A stretch of DNA of 64,000 nucleotides from Desulfurispora thermophila DSM 16022 (GTDB lineage: Bacteria > Bacillota > Desulfotomaculia > Desulfotomaculales > Desulfurisporaceae): assembly GCF_000376385.1 (NCBI RefSeq), contig NZ_AQWN01000004.1:62001-126000 (forward strand), written 5' to 3'. Positions within the stretch are counted from its first letter, which is position 1; each line of letters begins with the position of its first letter. The position numbers and the translations under genes are program-made. This document shows positions 19,659 to 34,117 of the stretch, in pieces. The notes below the pieces were generated by a model, which did not search any database, was not told where the DNA came from, and saw nothing but the letters and a program-made list of their open reading frames with translations.

Positions 19659-20852
19659 TTAGCAGCGCTCCAGAATGGTGGCTACGCCCTGGCCGCCGCC
19701 GCAGCAGGCCGTGACCAGCGCATAGCGGCCCTGCCGCCGTTGCAGCTCGTAGACGGCCTTGACCACCAGGATGGCCAGCGAACCGGCAATGGGATGCCCC
19801 AGGGCAATGGCGCCCCCGTTGGGGTTGAATTTTTCCTCATCCCGCCAGTCGATGCCCAGCTCCCGGCAGCAGGCCAGGGATTGGGCGGCAAAGGCCTCGT
19901 TCAGCTCAATGACATCGATGTCGTCCAGAGTCAGCCCGGCCGTTTGCAGGGCCTTGCGGGTGGCTGGCACGGGGCCGATGCCCATAATGTTGGGGTCCAC
20001 GCCGGCGGCGGCTACAGCCCGGATGGCCGCCAGGGGCCTTGTGCCCAACTCGTCCGCCTTTTCCCGGCTCATCAGCACCAGCGCTCCGGCGCCGTCGTTG
20101 ATACCCGAGGAGTTGCCCGCCGTCACGGTGCCGCCCGGTTTGAAGGCCGGCTTCAGTTTGGCCAGTGCTTCCAGGGTGGTATCGGGGCGGGGGTGTTCAT
20201 CGGTGTCAAAGACTACGGGCTCCCCTTTTTTCCGGGGGATGAGGATGGGGACGATCTGCTCCTTAAAGCGCCCTTCCTGAATGGCCCGGGCCGCTTTTTT
20301 CTGGCTCAGGTAGGCGAACTCATCCTGCTCCTCCCGGCTGATGCCCCAGCGCTCCACTATGTTTTCTGCTGTGATGCCCATGGGCGGGTCGCCTATTTCT
20401 GCCGGGGCCAGCGAGCGTCGTTCATAAAAGCGGGGGGCGGTGCGCTGGTAATCCACCGGAGCCTTTTCCAGCAGGTAGGGCTGCCTGGTCATGCTCTCCA
20501 CACCGCCGGCCACATAAATATTGCCTGCGCCGGCCCAGATGTGGACGGCGGCCAGGTTGACGGCCGTGGAGCCCGAACCGCACTGCCGGTCTATGGTCAG
20601 GGCCGGGATGCTGATGGGCAGTCCGGCTTTGAGCATGGCTACGCGGGACATGCAGCCCACGTTGGAGCCCAGGCAGTGGCCGAATATTACCTCGTCTATG
20701 GTAGCGGGATCGGGCAGGCCGCTGCGCTTGACCGCTTCCGCAATCACCGCCGCAGCATAGTTTTCCGGCGGTACATCTTTTAATGCCCCTCTTTCTTTGG
20801 CAATGGCTGTGCGGGCAGCGCCGACAATGACGGCTTCTCGCATCGGGTTCAT
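19659..20852 (-). CDS. Acetyl-CoA acetyltransferase (thiolase)
   Basis: A 397-residue thiolase that cleaves acetoacetyl-CoA with CoA to two acetyl-CoA, or the reverse. The nucleophilic Cys91 lies in [10 protein letters not shown], with NEAFAA, the [13 protein letters not shown] His motif and the C-terminal ACCGGGQG Cys all present. First gene of the leftward acyl-CoA operon, behind a sigma-54-like promoter and divergent from the sigma-54 activator gene. Confidence 0.92.
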
Positions 20853-21052: not shown

Positions 21053-22957
21053 GTGTCCGAGATCAAGATCGGTGTCGTTTCTACATATCCGGAACTGTCC
21101 AGGCAAATAATGGCCCTGGCTGCCGAACGACAGCTGCAGGTGGAACTGCGCGAGGGGGTTTTGCAGGAGGGCGTGCGGCAGGCCCGCCAGCTGGAGCGGC
21201 AGGGTGTGGACGTGATTATCAGCCGGGGTCCCACCGGCCGGATGATCAAAAAGGCCGTCTCTCTGCCGGTGGCCCTGATCGACATCACTTCTTTCGACAT
21301 CCTGCAGGCCCTGCATGCGGCCAGAAAGCTGGGACGGCGGATTGCCTACCTGGGCCACCGCGTACATGATTTCACGCCCGATTTCGCCAGCATTACGGAA
21401 ATACTGGCGGTGGATGTACAGTGTTACCCCTACAGCAATGAGTATGAAATGAACTGCCAGGTGGCCAGAATCCTGGACGAGGGTGCGACCGAGGTGGTGG
21501 TCAGCACCGGCCAGTGCATACTGGAAATGTCCAGAAGATCCGGCCTGAAAGCCGTGCTGGTGCAATCGGGTTATGAAACTGTTTACAGCTCCCTGGAGCG
21601 GGCCAGGGAACTGGCGCGCAGTGTGCAGCAGGAGCAGCGGCGCTGGCAGAGGTTTCGCTCGGTGCTGGAGCTGACCAGCGACGGCATCCTGGTTTTAAAT
21701 GAAAACAGGCAGGTTTCATTTTTGAACCCGGCCGGGGAAAAGCTGCTGGGAGTAGATGCGGGCAGTGTGCTGGGCCGGCATGTGGACGAGTTGCGCCAGA
21801 CCGTGCTGGGGCCGCTGCTGCAGGGCGGCAAAGTCAGCGATGTGCTCAAAACTGTGGGTAAAAAACAGTTTCTGGTGAGCAGCCTGCCCATCTTGCTCAA
21901 GGACAAGGAGCAGGGAGCGGTGATCACCTTCCAGAGCGCCGACCGCATTCAGGTGCTGGAACACAACTTAAGGCGGCAGCTGTTTAAAAAGGGCCTGGTG
22001 GCCCGCTACACCTTTGCCGACATCATTGGTGAAAGCCCGCTCCTGCACCAGGCCGTCCGGCAGGCCAAAAAGTTTGCCGCGGCTAAAGCTACGGTGCTGA
22101 TCTGCGGCGAGAGCGGCACGGGCAAGGAACTTTTTGCCCAGAGCATTCACAATGAGAGCAGCCGCAGCCGGGGGCCTTTTGTGGCGGTCAACTGCGCCGC
22201 TCTGCCGGAAAACTTGCTGGAAAGCGAGCTTTTCGGTTATGAGGAGGGCGCTTTTACCGGGGCCAAGAAGGGCGGCAAGGTGGGCCTTTTTGAGATGGCC
22301 CACGGCGGCACCATTTTTCTGGATGAGATTGGCGAACTGCCTCTGCCGGTGCAGGCCAGGCTGCTGCGCGTGCTGCAGGAAAGGGAGATCATGCGCCTGG
22401 GCAGCGACCGGATTATTCCGGTGGATGTGCGGGTGATTGCGGCCACCAACTACAACCTGGCCCGGGAAGTGAAAGCCGGCCGGTTTCGCAGCGACCTGTA
22501 CCACCGCCTGGAGGTGCTGGGCCTGGAACTGCCCCCGCTCAGGGCCAGGAAAGAGGATATTGGACTGCTGGCCCGGCACTTTGTCCGGCAGCTTTCTCTG
22601 CAGGAGGGCAAATCCGTGCCCCAGCTCAATGCTCCGGCCCTGGACAGGCTGAAAAGATACGACTGGCCGGGCAATATCCGGGAACTGCAGAATGTGATCT
22701 TGAAATATGTGTTGCTGATCGAGGAAGGGCAGGATCCGGCCGAGCTGGTGGAGCGCCTGATAGGCGAAAAGCTGCAGCTGCGCAACCAGTCTGCTGTTAC
22801 CGGTGCCGGGGAAACCATTACCCTGCGCATTGGCCGGCTGGAGGATATGGAACGCGAGGTAATCCGCTATCTTAAATCCACCGGACGAAGCTCCGCCGAG
22901 ATTGCCCGTCTGCTGGGCACCAGCCGCACCACCCTGTGGCGCAAGACCAGGGCGTAG
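21053..22957 (+). CDS. Sigma-54-dependent activator with PrpR N-terminal and PAS domains
   Basis: 634 residues from a GTG start behind GGGGGAGAG. Domain order: PrpR_N-type sensor (about 1-175, with [20 protein letters not shown]), PAS (about 200-300), AAA+ domain with Walker [16 protein letters not shown], the sigma-54 contact loop GAFTGA, Walker [14 protein letters not shown], and a Fis-type HTH ([15 protein letters not shown]). It should activate the -24/-12 promoters found in this cluster. The effector is unknown; PrpR_N domains bind small organic acids or acyl derivatives. A TATAAT at 21018-21023 may serve its own housekeeping promoter. Confidence 0.9.
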
Positions 22958-23102: not shown

Positions 23103-23118
23103 TGGTACGGGGTTTGCA
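23103..23118 (+). promoter_or_regulatory. Sigma-54 (-24/-12) promoter of the rightward acyl-CoA operon
   Basis: TGGTACGGGGTTTGCA matches TGGCAC-N5-TTGCA with a single mismatch. It lies after the activator's terminator. The distance to the hbd2 start is about 235 nt, because a 208-nt inverted element lies between. Confidence 0.7.
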
Positions 23119-23340: not shown

Positions 23341-23353
23341 ACCGGGGAGTGTG

Positions 23354-24214
23354 ATGAACTTGCCAGTACAGAATATCTGCGTGGTGGGGGCGGGCAATAT
23401 GGGGCACCAGATCGCCCTGAGCGCCGCCCTGGCCGGATTCCAGGTCATGTGCACCGATATTGACCCGCAAATTCTGGCCAGAGCGGAGAACTTTGCCGAT
23501 ACCTACCTGAAGGAGCGGGTGACCAAAGGTCGCCTGAATGAAGAACAGGCCCGGGCGGCCCGGAACAGGATAGCCTTTACCGGCAATCTGGAAGAAGCGG
23601 CCCGGGAGGCCGATCTGGTGATTGAGGCGGTGGTGGAAAAGCTGGCGGTCAAGCGGCAGCTCTTTGCCCGGTTGGACGCCATCTGCCCTGCGCATACCAT
23701 TCTGGCCACCAATAGTTCGTACATTGTCAGTTCCAAAATTGCCGATGCCACTGGCCGGCCGGAAAAGGTCTGCAACATGCACTTTTTCAACCCCGCCCTG
23801 GTGAACAAGCTGGTGGAAGTGGTGAAGGGGCCGCACACAGCGGCCGAGACGGCCGAGACCATGCTGGAAGTGGCCGGCCGTATGGGCAAAGTCCCGGTGC
23901 TGTTGCAAAAAGAAATATATGGCTTTCTGGTCAACCGCATTGTAGCCGCTATTAAAAACGAAGCCATCTATTTGTACGACATGGGTGTAGCCTCCTACGA
24001 GGACATTGACACCGCGGTGGTGCAGGCGCTGGGACATCCCATGGGGCCCTTCCGCCTGATGGACCTGACCGGCATTGACCTGACCTACCATGTGGGTATG
24101 GAGCGCTACCAGGAGACCGGTGACCCCAGGTACAAGCCCTCGCCACTGATTGTGGAGAAATACCTGAAAGGGGAATGGGGGCGCAAAACCGGCCGGGGAT
24201 TTTACGAGTATTAA
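23354..24214 (+). CDS. hbd: 3-hydroxybutyryl-CoA dehydrogenase, second copy
   Basis: A 286-residue paralogue of the enzyme at 12705, with very high identity by eye: VVGAGNMGHQIALSAALAG, NMHFFNPALVNKLVEVV, GFLVNRIVAAIKNEAIYLYD, and GHPMGPFRLMDLTGIDLTYH. It oxidises 3-hydroxybutyryl-CoA to acetoacetyl-CoA with NAD(P). GGGGAG precedes ATG 23354; a GTG at 23351 is also in frame. First gene of the rightward operon, driven from 23103. Confidence 0.92.
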   Translation: MNLPVQNICVVGAGNMGHQIALSAALAGFQVMCTDIDPQILARAENFADTYLKERVTKGRLNEEQARAARNRIAFTGNLEEAAREADLVIEAVVEKLAVKRQLFARLDAICPAHTILATNSSYIVSSKIADATGRPEKVCNMHFFNPALVNKLVEVVKGPHTAAETAETMLEVAGRMGKVPVLLQKEIYGFLVNRIVAAIKNEAIYLYDMGVASYEDIDTAVVQALGHPMGPFRLMDLTGIDLTYHVGMERYQETGDPRYKPSPLIVEKYLKGEWGRKTGRGFYEY

Positions 24215-24299: not shown

Positions 24300-25454
24300 A
24301 TGGATTTTACCATTCCGGAAGAAATCATGGAAATGAAGCGCACACTGCGCGAGTTTGTGGACAAAGAAGTAGATGCCTACGGGCAGCAGATCGAAGAGGA
24401 AGACAAAATACCCGAACACCTGCTGGCCAAAGCCAGGGACATGGGCCTGTTCGGTATGAGCATCCCCGAGGAGTACGGCGGGCTGGGCTTGAGCATGCTG
24501 GAGCGCTGCCTGTTACTGGAGGAACTGGGCCGCACCAATATGGGCTTCACCACCTACATCGGTGCCCACACCGGCATTGGTAGCACGGGCATCGTGGAAA
24601 TGGGCAGTGAGGAAATAAAGCGCAAATATCTGCCGGCCATGGCCGCCGGGGAAAAGCTGGGGGCCTTCGCCCTCACCGAGCCCGAAGCCGGATCGGACGC
24701 CAGCAATATGAAAACCACCGCCGTGCTCAAGGGCGACAAATGGATCCTGAACGGCAGCAAACACTTCATCACCAACGCGCCCGATGCCGATGTGTTTACT
24801 GTAATTGCCGTTACCGACCGTTCCAAAGGTACCCGGGGCGGCTACACTGCCTTTGTGGTGGAAAAGGACTTCCCCGGCTTTTCCGTGGGCACGGTGGAAA
24901 AGAAAATGGGCCTGCGCGGGTCGCACACCGCCGAGATTATCTTTGAAGACTGCGAAGTGCCGCGGGAAAACGTGCTGGGCGAAGTAGGCCGGGGCTATGC
25001 CGGCGCTTTGAAAATCCTGAGCAAAGGCCGGGTGGCCCTGGCCGCCCGCTGTGTGGGAGCCTGCGACAAGCTGGTGGAACTGTCGGCCAAATACGCCCAG
25101 CAGCGGGTGCAGTTCGGCAAACCCATCGCCAGCTTCCAGGCCATCCAGTGGATGCTGGCCGAGATGGCCGCCGACACCGAAGCGTCCCGCGCTCTGACCT
25201 GGCGGGTGGCCTGGATGGTGGACCAGGGGCTGCCGGTGTACAAGGAGGGTCCCATTGCCAAGATGTTCGTTACTGAAGCGCTGGCCCGGGTAGTGGACAA
25301 GGCGGTGCAGATCCACGGCGGCATGGGTTATATGAAAGAGTTTCCGGTGGAGAGATTTTACCGCGATGCCCGCATCACCCGCATTTATGAAGGAACCAAC
25401 GAAATCCAGCGCATGATTATAGCCGGTCAGCTGCTCAAGGAGTTCGAGTTGTAG
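24300..25454 (+). CDS. Acyl-CoA dehydrogenase
   Basis: A 384-residue FAD enzyme with FALTEPEAGSDASNMKT, WILNGSKHFITNAP, IHGGMGYMKEFPVERFYRD and the catalytic Glu in IYEGTNEIQRMII, at the usual place for butyryl-CoA and related dehydrogenases. AAGGAGAGG precedes the ATG. It lies between hbd2 and a thiolase-like gene in the rightward operon. The substrate cannot be read; a short-chain acyl-CoA is likely. Confidence 0.9.
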   Translation: MDFTIPEEIMEMKRTLREFVDKEVDAYGQQIEEEDKIPEHLLAKARDMGLFGMSIPEEYGGLGLSMLERCLLLEELGRTNMGFTTYIGAHTGIGSTGIVEMGSEEIKRKYLPAMAAGEKLGAFALTEPEAGSDASNMKTTAVLKGDKWILNGSKHFITNAPDADVFTVIAVTDRSKGTRGGYTAFVVEKDFPGFSVGTVEKKMGLRGSHTAEIIFEDCEVPRENVLGEVGRGYAGALKILSKGRVALAARCVGACDKLVELSAKYAQQRVQFGKPIASFQAIQWMLAEMAADTEASRALTWRVAWMVDQGLPVYKEGPIAKMFVTEALARVVDKAVQIHGGMGYMKEFPVERFYRDARITRIYEGTNEIQRMIIAGQLLKEFEL

Positions 25455-25474: not shown

Positions 25475-26650
25475 ATGCAGGAAGTGGCCATTGTTGGTGC
25501 CGGGCAGACCCGCTACGGCGATTTTCCCGAACTGGGGGTGAAGGAACTCTTTGCTCTGGCCTACCGGGAAATGCTGAAAAGTGTGGACCGGGGGCTGGAC
25601 CCGCAGCAGATTCAGGCCGCCTACATCGGCTGTTTGAGTGCCGGCAGCGGTTTCCAGCTGGGACAGCTGGCTCCGCTGCTGATGGGGCATGTGGGCCTGC
25701 CCCATATTGCCGCTGTGCGGGTGGAAAATGCCTGCGCTTCGGGGGGTTACGCCCTGTACAGTGCGGCCTGCGCGGTGGCGGCCGGCAAGTACGACCTGGT
25801 GCTGGCGGCCGGGGTGGAAAAGATGCGCGATGTGTCCTCCGCCAAGGGCCGGTACTGGCTGGGGGTTTCGGGCGACACCGAGTACGAGCGCCTGGCCGGC
25901 TCCACTTTTGCCGGCATATACGCGCTCATGGCGGCCAGATACATGCACCAGTACGGATTGAAAAGGGAGCACCTGTCCATGGTGGCTGTGAAAAACCACC
26001 GCCACGCCCTGGATAATCCCAAAGCCCAGTTTCGCAAAGAGATTACGCTGGAGGATGCTTTGCGGGGTGCACCCGTGGCCCATCCCTTCAATATCTGGGA
26101 CTGCAGCCCCACCAGCGATGGAGCGGCAGTGGTGCTGCTGTGCAACGCCAGAATAGCCCGCAGCTTTACCGACCGGCCGGTTTACCTGAAAGGGTTTGCC
26201 GTGGCCAGCGATTACCTGGCCATCCACGACCGCGATTCCATCACCGGGCTGGCCGCCACCCGGCGGGCTGCCGCCGCGGCCTACCAGCAGGCGGGGGTGA
26301 AACCGGCGGATATTTCCTTTGCCGAAGTGCATGACTGCTTTACCATTGCCGAAATCATGGCCTACGCCGACCTGGGCTTTTGCCGGGAAGGAGAGGCCTG
26401 GCGCCTGCTGGAAGAGGGAACCACCCGCCGGGAAGGCCGCCTGCCGGTCAACAACAGCGGCGGGCTGAAGGCCAAGGGTCACCCCATCGGGGCTACCGGC
26501 GTGGGCATGGCGGTGGAGATCTTCAGCCAGCTGCGGGGCGAGGCCAGGGAGCCCTCCCGGCAGCTGAAAAACCCCGGGCTGGCCCTGTCCCACAATGTGG
26601 GCGGCTCGGGTGGTACGGCAGCGGTGTTCATTTACCGGGGGGGTGCGTGA
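25475..26650 (+). CDS. Thiolase-family protein (SCP2/archaeal type)
   Basis: 391 residues. The nucleophile Cys87 lies in VENACASGGYAL; EVHDCFTIAE replaces the NEAF motif of ordinary thiolases, and the His motif is GGLKAKGHPIGATG. These are marks of the SCP2-type / archaeal acetoacetyl-CoA thiolase group that works with a DUF35 partner. The next two genes are an HMG-CoA-synthase-like protein and a DUF35 protein, the trio seen in archaeal thiolase-HMGCS complexes. Its stop overlaps the possible GTG start of the next gene. Confidence 0.85.
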   Translation: MQEVAIVGAGQTRYGDFPELGVKELFALAYREMLKSVDRGLDPQQIQAAYIGCLSAGSGFQLGQLAPLLMGHVGLPHIAAVRVENACASGGYALYSAACAVAAGKYDLVLAAGVEKMRDVSSAKGRYWLGVSGDTEYERLAGSTFAGIYALMAARYMHQYGLKREHLSMVAVKNHRHALDNPKAQFRKEITLEDALRGAPVAHPFNIWDCSPTSDGAAVVLLCNARIARSFTDRPVYLKGFAVASDYLAIHDRDSITGLAATRRAAAAAYQQAGVKPADISFAEVHDCFTIAEIMAYADLGFCREGEAWRLLEEGTTRREGRLPVNNSGGLKAKGHPIGATGVGMAVEIFSQLRGEAREPSRQLKNPGLALSHNVGGSGGTAAVFIYRGGA

Positions 26651-26652
26651 GC

Positions 26653-27657
26653 ATGGCCAAAAGCACAGTGATCGCCTGCGGGGCCTACATCCCTTACCTG
26701 CGCCTGGCACGGCAGGAGTATGTTAGCGCTCTGGGTGGCTGCTCGGCTGATCTACAGGAAAAAGCCGTGCCCGATATCGATGAGGATGTGCTGACCATGG
26801 CAGTGGCCGCGGCCCGCAATGCTCTGGCCGGCGTGGATCCCGGCCGGATTGGCGTGCTGGTGCTGGCTTCGACCAGCTTCCCCTGCCAGGAGAAATTTAT
26901 GGCCGGCACCCTGGTGGAAGCCCTGGGCCTGCCGTCCGATGTTTTGACCGGGCACTTTGGTCACTCCATCCTGGCCGGCGCCGAAGCATTTCTGGCCTCT
27001 CCGGGCCTGCTGGATCTGACCGACCGCCCCTGTGCGCTGGTGGTGATTGCCGATGCGCCGGCCGCGACCGGTGAACTGGAACAGGCCGCCGGCGGTGGCG
27101 CCTGCGCTTTTGTGCTGGCCCGGCAGGGGGCAGGTCTGGAGCTGGAAGGTGCGGCGGCTTATGCCGCCGAGTATCCGGGTCTGCGCTACCGTCTGCCCGG
27201 TGATATCGCCGTGCGGGACATCGGCGTGCCGGCCTACGCCGCTGCGGCCGCCCGGGAAGTGTCAAGCGCCGCGCTGGGCGGACTGCTGCAGAAGCTGGGG
27301 GCAAAGCCTTCTGATTACGGGCAGGCCGTACTGCCCCAGAGCGGGGCGAAGGCTTACCTGAACCAGGCCCGGCAGCTGGGCTTCAGCGCGCAACAGGCAG
27401 AGCCCGGGCTGATTTATTCTCTGGTGGGCGACTGTGGAGCCGCCACGCCCTTTCTGGGCCTGTGCCGGGTGCTGGAGCAGCTGGATGTGGGGCAGCGGAT
27501 ATTGCTGCTTACCAGTGCGCCCGGTTCCGGCAGCTGCGCCTTGAGCTTTAAGCTGACCGGGCCGCTGCTGCCGCCCGCATGGTCTGTAAACGCGTTGCTG
27601 GAGCGCAAGAAATACCTCAGCTATGTCCAGTACCTGCGGCTGAAGGGGATTGTTTGA
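26653..27657 (+). CDS. HMG-CoA-synthase-like protein lacking the catalytic residues
   Basis: 334 residues with a condensing-enzyme fold (ACGAYIPYLRL, VLVLASTSFPCQEKF, ALGLPSDVLTGHFGHS, YSLVGDCGAATPFLGL, ending in ERKKYLSYVQYLRLKGIV, typical of archaeal HMGCS). The catalytic Glu, Cys and His of HMG-CoA synthase appear to be replaced: Ser105 or a neighbour stands where the ACYGGT Cys should be, ASTS stands for ATES, and VLPQSGAKAY stands for the His-Gln-Pro loop. It is probably a structural partner linking thiolase and DUF35. The start is ATG 26653, with GTG 26647 possible. Confidence 0.7.
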   Translation: MAKSTVIACGAYIPYLRLARQEYVSALGGCSADLQEKAVPDIDEDVLTMAVAAARNALAGVDPGRIGVLVLASTSFPCQEKFMAGTLVEALGLPSDVLTGHFGHSILAGAEAFLASPGLLDLTDRPCALVVIADAPAATGELEQAAGGGACAFVLARQGAGLELEGAAAYAAEYPGLRYRLPGDIAVRDIGVPAYAAAAAREVSSAALGGLLQKLGAKPSDYGQAVLPQSGAKAYLNQARQLGFSAQQAEPGLIYSLVGDCGAATPFLGLCRVLEQLDVGQRILLLTSAPGSGSCALSFKLTGPLLPPAWSVNALLERKKYLSYVQYLRLKGIV

Positions 27658-27740
27658 ACAACCGGCAGCAGCCGGCCGGCAGAAAAGCAGCAGGCTGTTG
27701 CCGGCAGTGATACCGAATTAGTTGATTGGGAGGTGCTGGC

Positions 27741-28181
27741 ATGGGTGCCCATATCTCCATACCCATGTACCGCCGTACTGTGTCCCGGCGCTACCGGCTG
27801 GTGGGGCAAAAGTGCCTGAACTGTGGCCGGATTAACTTCCCGCCCAAGGCGGTCTGCCGCTACTGTTTAACCGGTACGGAATTTGAGGATGTCCCTTTAA
27901 GCGGCCGGGGGACGGTGTACTCATACACCATCATTGCCGGGGGAGGTGCGCCGCCCGAATTCGCCGATCTGGCCCGCTGCCGCGGTAGCTACCCCGTGGC
28001 GCTGGTGGAACTGGAAGAAGGCCCCCGCATTATTGCCCAGCTGGTGGAAACCCCGCCGCAGAACATCTACATCGGCATGCCGGTAGAGGCCGTGTTCCGG
28101 CGCATTTACGAGGAGGAAGGCGTGGTGCGCTACGGGTTCAAGTTTCGCCCGCAGCCCGCGGCGGAGGGAGGAAAAACATAG
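27741..28181 (+). CDS. DUF35 OB-fold / zinc-ribbon protein
   Basis: 146 residues with a rubredoxin-like zinc ribbon near the N-terminus (CLNCGRINFPPKAVCRYC) followed by an OB fold (SGRGTVYSYTII, then PVALVELEEGPRIIAQLVE). Proteins of this kind bridge thiolase and HMG-CoA synthase active sites in archaea by holding the CoA phosphopantetheine arm; BbsA in toluene breakdown is similar. It lies 83 nt after the HMGCS-like gene, with GGGAGG before the ATG. Last gene of the operon. Confidence 0.88.
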   Translation: MGAHISIPMYRRTVSRRYRLVGQKCLNCGRINFPPKAVCRYCLTGTEFEDVPLSGRGTVYSYTIIAGGGAPPEFADLARCRGSYPVALVELEEGPRIIAQLVETPPQNIYIGMPVEAVFRRIYEEEGVVRYGFKFRPQPAAEGGKT

Positions 28182-28189
28182 CTAACAAA

Positions 28190-29540
28190 TTAATCCAGCT
28201 GGCTGAATGGGCAAAATGCAGCGCAATAATTACATCCGGCTTTAGGTATTAATTGTATAGTAACATCCGAATAATCATTAACCCAAAAGAACAAGTTTCC
28301 ACTTTCTGCGATATCTTTGATAACTGATATGCTCGGGTGTTTATATCGATTATTGTTGATTCCGGCTGAAGCAATCCAAAAATGACAGTTTATAGCATCA
28401 TTTATAAGCTCGGTATTCCAATTAAGATAGGAGCCGTGATGTGGAAGAAGACAGGTGGAAATTGAATTAAGTTTTTTGCTCATATGTTGCTGAAATTCGC
28501 AGTATTTATCGGTTAAATCTAAATCACCGGTGAGTAATTGACCATAAGCCGGTTTTGATGATGAATACAAAAAGTGATTAGGATATTCAATATTGGTATA
28601 CCAGTAAGGAGGGGTGGGAAGTAGCATAGATTTTAAATTAGAGAGTAAAATTGTATGGAAATAGTCCCAATTGTTAACAACCGGAGTATGTAATAATACT
28701 AAAGAAGTATCGTTTATGTTGCGTTTTCCTGTAATTATCTTATAGCAATTTTTTGCTTTTTTTCTTGCCGTTTCGTCTGTTAAAATATTATCGACATTGC
28801 CAATTTTTTGTAGACACTTTTTTAAATTATTAAGACTCAATTGCTCTGCTTCTTTAACATAAAAAATAAATTCCCAAAATATTTTCATGGGTATTTCTGC
28901 TGGGCAGTATAATTTTCCCGTGATGTGTTTTTACAGCTAATTTTTTATTGCGAATATATTCTTGCCACTTGTTCCGTGTTTGTACATTTTCTTCTTCGAT
29001 AATGCGCTCAAGTTGCCATTTTGGTACATCTTCTAATTCAATTATTAGATTATCTTTGTCTGGCTGTTTATCGTTGTGCATGTCCCTGTCTTCTTTTTGT
29101 TTATCTCCTGATGTGATTAAAATAATCTTTTTTACGCCTTTGGCATACAAAAAATGAATAGGATCAATGATAAAATCAAAATACCACTTTTCTGGACGAT
29201 AAGAGAATAATGATAATAAAATTCTTTCTACGGGCGAAATATATGGTATTACCACAAGGTTTACTGTGGTTAGTTCTAGTAATCTATCCAAACCGGACAC
29301 ATGATCGTTATCAAAATGAGATATTACTATAAGATCAATTAAAGGTTTCTGAACTGGTCGCTGTAATAAAAGAAGCTTTTTGCGATATTGGTCAACTGAT
29401 TCTCGGATGGCTTTTTTTGATCTGCTCCCACAGTCATATACGAAATTAAAAGAGCCGATTTGGCCAGTATAGAAAAGTCCCTGTCCCACATTATGGAACT
29501 TAAAGATGTTTGAACAATCATTTAGATAATGATAATGCAT
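28190..29540 (-). pseudogene. ComEC-like metallo-beta-lactamase-fold protein, frameshifted
   Basis: Two overlapping frames complete each other. The upstream part (28854-29540) holds the metal-binding motif VISHFDNDHVSG; the downstream part (28190-28888) holds LLTGDLDLTD and LLPHHGSYLNW, motifs found in ComEC-type and related MBL-fold hydrolases. A one-base shift in the GGGAAAATT tract at about 28911-28920 joins ...KTHHGK to LYCPAEIPMKIFWEF. Full length would be about 450 residues. The gene is strongly AT-rich relative to its neighbours, indicating recent transfer. The hydrolase substrate is unknown. Confidence 0.65.
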
Positions 29541-30138
29541 TCATCTCACTCTCTCTATCCTTTAAAAGGTTTTATTGGCAGATTTAATTTCTTACATCCG
29601 TGATCGGTTAACGAAACAATGAGCCTGTTATAGAAAAACATGACCAATAATGTAATCCATAGAAGCCTAGCAATATCACCCCTTTATGCCAGTTGATATT
29701 CATTATTCAGCCTCTCCAACATGAAACGCAGTCTTTTGCCGGCAATGTCGATGATTGCCCCGGTGCTAGGGATGGGAGGTACGATCAAGGGGTCACAGCT
29801 TTTCCTCAGGCGGCTGAAGGAGTAAGCGCTGTGTTTGGTAATCTGGCTGGAAATTTCATCGACTGTTTTTTGCTTTATTCTTTGTCAATCGATCCTTTTC
29901 CTGCCAGATTTTTATCTGGTTAACTCAAAACGAATGGTCATGGTGATAACCGCCTGTGCGACTATTTCCAGGTGGGCATTATTTAACGCTTGCGCGTATG
30001 AGAAAATGACAACCTTTGGTTCGGTTCAACCGGCTCCGCTGTCGGTTCTTGCTCTGCTTCGTGGCGTTTTCCTATGGCGGAAGCCCGTCTCCTAATGTTA
30101 CGAACACGAATGAAAAATTCTAAGCCCCCTCATTGTTG
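29541..30138. other. Gene-poor stretch upstream of the toxin-antitoxin pair
   Basis: About 600 nt with no gene I can support. On the minus strand a short open stretch (about 29685-29890) reads ISSQITKHSAYSFSRLRKSC then IIDIAGKRLRFMLERLNN, which looks protein-like but has no start codon. It may be the tail of a lost gene. Confidence 0.35.
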
Positions 30139-30167
30139 TTGTATTTTACGAAGGATATTGCTACAAT
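30139..30167 (+). promoter_or_regulatory. Sigma-70-type promoter of the toxin-antitoxin operon
   Basis: TTGTAT (30139-30144), a 17-nt spacer, and TACAAT (30162-30167). The antitoxin ATG follows 31 nt later behind GGGGAGG. Repeated TTGTTG and ACAATAATAAC around it form an imperfect inverted repeat that could bind the antitoxin. Confidence 0.55.
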
Positions 30168-30198
30168 AATAACAGCAACATTGAAGGGGAGGTTTATT

Positions 30199-30453
30199 AT
30201 GCCAAACATTAAGCCAATTTCCGATTTAAGGAATTATAATGAAGTATTGCGCAGCATAGAGGAGGGTTCACCGGTCTTTTTAACAAAAAATGGCCGTGGC
30301 CGCTATGTGGTTATGGATATACAAGAGTATGAAAAAATGCACGCAAAATTAAAATTGCTTGCTGAACTTGCTCAAGGGGAAAAGGCAGGGCGTGAAAATG
30401 GATGGCTAAACATTGATGAACTGGAAGCGTCCCTGGGGGTAGCGAATGGCTAA
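30199..30453 (+). CDS. Phd/YefM-family antitoxin
   Basis: 84 residues. The N-terminal Phd/YefM DNA-binding fold is clear (IKPISDLRNYNEVLRSI, then GSPVFLTKNGRGRYVVMDIQ), followed by a C-terminal toxin-binding tail. ATG 30199 follows GGGGAGG. It overlaps the toxin gene by 8 nt. It should repress its own promoter and neutralise the ParE/RelE-type toxin. Confidence 0.88.
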   Translation: MPNIKPISDLRNYNEVLRSIEEGSPVFLTKNGRGRYVVMDIQEYEKMHAKLKLLAELAQGEKAGRENGWLNIDELEASLGVANG

Positions 30454-30778
30454 TCTTAAAATCTCGCCCAAAGCGCATAAGGATATGCTGGAGATAAAAG
30501 AATACATCTCCGAAGAATTAGGTAATCCTACAGCAGCAATGAATGTACTGGCCAAAATCGCCAAACGATTCAGAGATCTTATGGAATTCCCGTTAATTGG
30601 AGCATCCTTATCCTCTGTTATTAAGATTGAAACAAGCTATCGTTATCTTGTATGCGGGCAATATACAGTTTTTTACCGTTATGAAAATGATACTGTATAT
30701 GTGGACAGAGTGCTATATGGTAGACGAGATTTTATGCGAATCCTCTTTGGGGATGTTGCAGAGGAAGGTAAGCGTTAA
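30446..30778 (+). CDS. ParE/RelE-family toxin
   Basis: 110 residues: KISPKAHKDMLEIKEYISEE at the N-terminus and YRYLVCGQYTVFYRYENDTV, then VLYGRRDFMRILF, typical of the ParE/RelE superfamily. Sequence alone does not decide between gyrase poison (ParE) and ribosome-dependent RNase (RelE); the YGRRDF ending is common in ParE-like members. Paired with the upstream Phd-type antitoxin. Confidence 0.85.
   Translation: MANLKISPKAHKDMLEIKEYISEELGNPTAAMNVLAKIAKRFRDLMEFPLIGASLSSVIKIETSYRYLVCGQYTVFYRYENDTVYVDRVLYGRRDFMRILFGDVAEEGKR

Positions 30779-30823: not shown

Positions 30824-34117
<3,294 letters not shown>

Follow-up and report, generated by a model that had tools for sequence, protein, structure and literature searches.

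A thiolase, DUF35 and HMG-CoA synthase-like gene trio in Desulfurispora thermophila that probably encodes a degradative thiolase with a non-catalytic synthase-like subunit

Within the window, by which we mean the whole 64,000-nt stretch of the Desulfurispora thermophila DSM 16022 genome that was analysed, positions 25475-28181 of the forward strand harbor one tight operon of three genes, encoding a thiolase (25475..26650), a protein resembling archaeal-type HMG-CoA synthase (HMGCS) without the catalytic residues of that enzyme (26647/26653..27657), and a DUF35 protein with a zinc ribbon and OB fold (27741..28181). On the same strand, the trio is preceded by genes for a 3-hydroxyacyl-CoA dehydrogenase (23351..24214; Pfam 3HCDH_N and 3HCDH) and a short-chain-type acyl-CoA dehydrogenase, ACAD2 (24300..25454; Pfam Acyl-CoA_dh domains), an orthologue of which lies directly 5' of the trio in most relatives. 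Further 5', also on the forward strand, a PrpR-like sigma-54-dependent activator (21053..22957; Pfam Sigma54_activat, PrpR_N and PAS) scores 422.7 bits against the NCBIfam PrpR model, below its cut-off of 499.2, and likely regulates the trio operon. The 393-nt gap before the operon contains a possible sigma-54 (-24/-12) promoter, TGGTACGGGGTTTGCA (23103..23118, forward strand), with one mismatch to TGGCAC-N5-TTGCW and a P of ~0.0125 for a gap of that length. Across the whole window, matches to the sigma-54 pattern are no more frequent than expected by chance, and only this local site is mildly notable; within the operon, there is no excess of promoters or terminators. Encoded on the opposite strand of the window are an HpaB-family protein, an acyl-CoA dehydrogenase and a conventional thiolase; the window has one such thiolase, at 19659-20852. 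Inspection by eye of the adjoining DNA picked up two adjoining, overlapping frames resembling one broken metallo-beta-lactamase-fold protein (28190-29540, reverse strand), two small adjoining genes resembling a Phd/ParE-type toxin-antitoxin pair (30133-30778, forward strand), and a PEP-synthase-like gene (30824-33444, reverse strand) whose split into two overlapping frames (30824-32992 and 32665-33444) suggests a frameshift.

Among solved structures, each of the three proteins is closest to its counterpart in the archaeal complex 6ESQ, at E=2e-89 for the thiolase (6esq_A), 2e-31 for the HMGCS-like protein and 8e-28 for DUF35 (6esq_E), as anticipated by the preliminary description, in which the trio was likened to that complex. 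The active-site motifs of the thiolase are intact (ENACASG, EVHDCFT and KGHPIGAT), in line with the earlier statement that it keeps its Cys, and ENACxSG, EVHDCFT and KGHPxGAT are conserved in every thiolase of family A, as we call the trios encoded by three discrete genes. The DUF35 gene has gggaggtg just 5' of its ATG, and its product matches Pfam zf-ChsH2 and OB_ChsH2_C; the four zinc Cys (CLNC and CRYC) and the N-terminal AHISIPMYxR motif are retained among relatives. Taken together, the Cys, HDCF and GHP motifs and a DUF35 partner with a Cys4 zinc ribbon are the marks of a DUF35-associated (SCP2-like) thiolase.

The HMGCS-like gene probably starts at GTG 26647, with a 4-nt overlap with the thiolase stop as in several orthologues; residues are numbered here from ATG 26653. 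A Pfam search of the protein returned no match, and it scores under the cut-offs of the NCBIfam HMGCS models (NF003274, 200.7 against 244 bits; TIGR00748, 135.8 against 353.35). Aligned without gaps to 6esq_I around the key positions, and concordantly by HMMER and MAFFT, it replaces Glu82, Cys114, His238 and Asn270 of the archaeal enzyme (Glu82 and Cys114 numbered as in PMC6392133) with Thr74, Ile106, Pro228 and Asp260. We tabulated these columns across 67 non-identical homologues with internal positive controls: at these positions, all four residues are present in MvaS (L102) and an archaeal-type HMGCS (L032), and Cys, His and Asn in three FabH-type proteins (L101, L103 and L104), so the column assignment is right. 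None of the 24 discrete orthologues has the Glu or the Cys, and neither does any of the 36 relatives of the fused type, in which HMGCS and DUF35 form one protein. The His follows a different course: 17 of the 24 discrete orthologues still have it, the window and six relatives have lost it, and it is missing throughout the 36 fused relatives of the phylum. The earlier claim that Glu, Cys and His are all gone thus holds for the window protein itself, and as a generality it holds for Glu and Cys in all 60 relatives and not for His. Cys78, named beforehand as a residue whose role as nucleophile would undo the claim of a dead subunit, is peculiar to the window among the 21 family members compared, the other 20 having Tyr there; it is therefore not a conserved nucleophile, and we reject it as an alternative. 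The predicted structure, of moderate quality (pLDDT 69, pTM 0.72; computed from three sequences, the window and two loci), has 6esq_I and PhlA as its best fold matches, with DpsC also among the matches; it backs an HMGCS-like fold, yet does not reach to residue-level claims.

HMG-CoA reductase was searched for in the genome and is absent, and DXR is present, so that isoprenoids must come from the MEP route and there is no mevalonate pathway for the trio to feed. This, along with the gene context, bears out the suggestion that the operon serves acyl-CoA breakdown rather than isoprenoid synthesis.

Alignment-based whole-genome searches, where a single-sequence contig scan had found only two relatives, placed the discrete trio in 17 of 113 genomes of the order (a class-level search gave the same 113), and a wider draw of 398 genomes of the phylum added seven discrete members; a scan of viral contigs yielded no relatives. 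Fused HMGCS-DUF35 proteins beside a thiolase are commoner than the discrete trio. The HMGCS-like gene adjoins the thiolase gene in 60 of 60 loci: at each of the 24 discrete loci, the HMGCS-like start coincides with or lies close to the thiolase end, and DUF35 begins 1-68 nt after the HMGCS-like gene (83 nt in the window, counted from the ATG), and in all 36 fused loci the thiolase comes directly after, with a single gap of 249 nt. Most family-A loci have a beta-oxidation-type operon context, usually with two acyl-CoA dehydrogenases, a 3-hydroxyacyl-CoA dehydrogenase, an enoyl-CoA hydratase and, in many loci, one or two conventional thiolases, and often with a butyryl-CoA:acetate CoA-transferase-like protein. 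The window genome itself has a second copy, a fused protein of 481 aa (G000:C6:29843-30826; L002 and L078) likewise without Glu, Cys and His, whose neighbors are a thiolase, a short-chain dehydrogenase, an acyl-CoA dehydrogenase and a PrpR-like activator. Outside the phylum, proteins of the fused type occur in haloarchaeal phenylacetate clusters, which share two beta-oxidation enzymes with family-A operons, in a cluster of Novosphingobium sp. ES2-1 that is similar to the edc estrogen cluster, and in clusters of Paraburkholderia and Niveispirillum that deal with CoA thioesters or aromatics; all are without Glu and Cys, and His is kept in two of the four haloarchaeal proteins.

In two trees, the HMGCS-like proteins without catalytic residues stand on one side and active HMGCS on the other, with support of 98/98 and 100/98, the latter for 29 non-catalytic against three active rows. 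The Phl proteins form a sub-branch (100/97 and 100/99) outside of which the window protein falls, within a catabolic sub-branch supported at 99/97. With three active sequences in the tree, this topology is consistent with HMG-CoA synthesis having been lost once, ahead of the split between catabolic and Phl proteins; the trees neither establish a single clade of all fused forms nor reject it (p-AU 0.09). Selection is purifying on both genes and weaker on the HMGCS-like gene (dN/dS of 0.07-0.33, against 0.04-0.12 for the thiolase), and with all values below 0.35 we rejected the reading of that gene as a pseudogene. Between family-A members, mean identity is 78% for the thiolase and 52% for the HMGCS-like protein, which has the lower value in 210 of 210 pairs, whereas an intact trio shows the reverse trend (39% and 45.5%, respectively, the control being the single pair 6ESQ/L032). 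Read against that one pair, such fast evolution of the HMGCS-like protein relative to its thiolase would be the pattern of a subunit kept for structure and not for chemistry.

Several characterized systems frame what the trio may do. The archaeal complex shares with the window its three protein types within one operon, a thiolase ~44% identical with the same motifs, the DUF35 zinc ribbon and OB fold and, as predicted by modelling, the HMGCS fold. It differs in that active thiolase and active HMGCS work in series in the mevalonate pathway, while in the window the HMGCS catalytic residues are gone, there is no mevalonate pathway, and the operon is one for acyl-CoA oxidation. Furthermore, DUF35 of the archaeal complex is described as a link that keeps the subunits assembled about a common CoA site (PMC12329534) and not, as the preliminary description had it, as passing acetoacetyl-CoA between them. 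PhlACB of Pseudomonas protegens (PDB 5M3K/5MG5), with its Chromobacterium homologue (9SKH), is a bacterial trio like that of the window, in which an HMGCS-like subunit without Cys and Glu is held by DUF35 to an active thiolase-fold subunit, an association that we expect in the window as well. Acyl transfer involves residues of PhlC only, but PhlACB needs all three subunits (PMC6392133), which sets a precedent for a required, non-catalytic HMGCS-like subunit. PhlA lacks the same Cys and Glu (PMC6392133) and was called an inactive member of the thiolase superfamily in 2010 (PMC2954200); a dead HMGCS subunit in a bacterial trio is therefore already known (PMC2954200, PMC6392133). PhlACB nevertheless lies on a separate branch and is a CoA-independent enzyme of an antibiotic pathway, whereas the window operon is catabolic. 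A further parallel is EGO55_13555 of the edc estrogen cluster in Novosphingobium tardaugens, an HMGCS homologue adjoining a thiolase in a catabolic operon. Its authors saw no sense in an HMGCS activity there, placed the protein in a separate group, and so have already flagged such a homologue as unexplained (PMC7793797). The homologue of EGO55_13555 in strain ES2-1 is without Glu, Cys and His and, unlike the window protein, is fused to DUF35 and divergent in sequence (long branch). Finally, the benzoylsuccinyl-CoA thiolase BbsAB (7PXP) and the steroid aldolases Ltp2/ChsH2 or Sal/Shy (6OK1, 9MYR) join a thiolase fold to DUF35 and act in CoA-thioester catabolism; unlike the window trio, they have no HMGCS-like subunit in the cited descriptions. 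Our literature search, largely confined to papers outside subscription, found no paper uniting the PhlA-type and catabolic HMGCS homologues as a catabolic family. What is added here is that the non-catalytic subunits lie on one side of the tree and active HMGCS on the other, with the window in a catabolic branch, and that this branch occurs in beta-oxidation operons, haloarchaeal phenylacetate clusters and an estrogen-type cluster.

Given the lack of a mevalonate pathway and the precedent of PhlACB, we propose a three-subunit 3-oxoacyl-CoA thiolase: with a probability of roughly 70%, the trio forms one heteromeric thiolase for CoA-thioester breakdown in which the HMGCS-like subunit is non-catalytic. 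The sequences show how the genes are ordered and related, that the thiolase motifs are intact and the HMGCS residues gone, that the trio recurs in catabolic operons, and that selection is purifying; from these observations we infer that a complex forms, that it runs in the thiolytic direction on a short- or medium-chain 3-oxoacyl-CoA, and that the HMGCS-like role is non-catalytic. The thiolase subunit would cleave 3-oxoacyl-CoA with CoA via its Cys/His active site, and DUF35 would bridge it to the HMGCS-like subunit on the pattern of the archaeal complex and PhlACB. The HMGCS-like subunit would make no HMG-CoA and would be retained as a structural partner that completes the oligomer, probably forming part of a shared CoA or substrate cavity. 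Conventional thiolases are encoded in many of the loci as well as in the window, so the trio need not be the main thiolase; because they so often share its operon, it may, speculatively, serve one chain length in particular or work when substrate is scarce.

It is also conceivable, though unlikely, that the HMGCS-like subunit has taken on a new catalytic role, using, for example, a Ser/Thr nucleophile next to the lost Cys or the retained His as an acyl-CoA holder or hydrolase. A Ser (Ser105 in the window) stands immediately before the lost Cys position in all 21 family-A members compared, and the His238 kept by the 17 discrete orthologues could mean residual chemistry; DpsC, a FabH-like protein, uses Ser instead of Cys. 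Yet in the window protein Ile takes the place of Cys and Pro that of His, the His is variable in family A and missing from every fused relative of the phylum, and the subunit evolves much faster than its thiolase. Among the roles first suggested, then, a scaffold or CoA-site function fits best, while a new reaction finds no positive support.

Less probable again is a trio running in the biosynthetic (Claisen) direction, for instance making acetoacetyl-CoA or a longer 3-oxoacyl-CoA. Thiolases are reversible, and the archaeal thiolase of the complex works in this direction; however, the neighbors of the trio are acyl-CoA dehydrogenases, an enoyl-CoA hydratase and CoA-transferase-like genes, related clusters are catabolic, and the genome is without HMG-CoA reductase. 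We find it harder still to see the trio as a C-acyltransferase of the PhlACB type that works without CoA and has a phenolic or other carbon acceptor. The architecture, the loss of Glu and Cys, and a G-D-x-G motif where HMGCS has G-N-x-Y are all held in common with PhlACB, but the window protein sits outside the Phl branch (Phl 100/99; catabolic 99/97), no polyketide synthase gene was noted among the annotated neighborhoods, and the thiolase is nearer the archaeal thiolase (E=2e-89) than PhlC (6e-31). That the HMGCS-like subunit is of little importance and drifting to loss in the window lineage is very improbable: the long branch, the lost His, the highest dN/dS (0.325, window vs L003) and the wider gap before DUF35 would agree with this, against which the frame is intact, dN/dS is still well below 1, and the close relative L003 retains tight spacing. 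A working HMG-CoA synthase can be dismissed, the full-length match to archaeal HMGCS models notwithstanding, as Glu, Cys, His and Asn are all replaced, scores fall under the family cut-offs and HMG-CoA reductase is absent.

Returning to the heteromeric thiolase with a non-catalytic HMGCS-like subunit, the arrangement recurs in dozens of bacteria and some archaea, suggesting that the 'dead' synthase is now a standard structural part of certain thiolases. We give even odds to the broader reading, in which a widespread class, spanning anaerobic fatty-acid oxidisers, aromatic and steroid degraders and haloarchaea, has an inactivated HMG-CoA synthase as an indispensable part of a degradative thiolase, serving as scaffold or at the CoA site and, in many lineages, fused to DUF35. 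Such a class would explain the puzzling 'HMG-CoA synthase' genes annotated in catabolic clusters, correct a recurring mis-annotation of HMG-CoA synthase in bacteria that make no mevalonate, and assign a role to unexplained genes of estrogen degradation and of haloarchaeal phenylacetate clusters. It would also exemplify a catalytic subunit turned structural, and because relatives exist in cultured, genetically tractable hosts, the reason for a thiolase to need another thiolase-fold partner that is inactive can be tested directly.

Other trios noted in the searches may merit a look of their own. A Candidatus Roizmanbacteria contig (L032:1047-3563) carries an archaeal-type trio in the order HMGCS-thiolase-DUF35, whose HMGCS residues (Glu, Cys, His and Asn) look intact. 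A Priestia megaterium plasmid (L114:3887-6665) has a discrete PhlA-like trio adjoining a non-ribosomal peptide synthetase gene, possibly an acyltransferase belonging to a natural-product cluster. A third type, highly divergent (family C; L081:8011-10579), lies near electron-transfer flavoprotein genes, and in its thiolase YNAF replaces HDCF.
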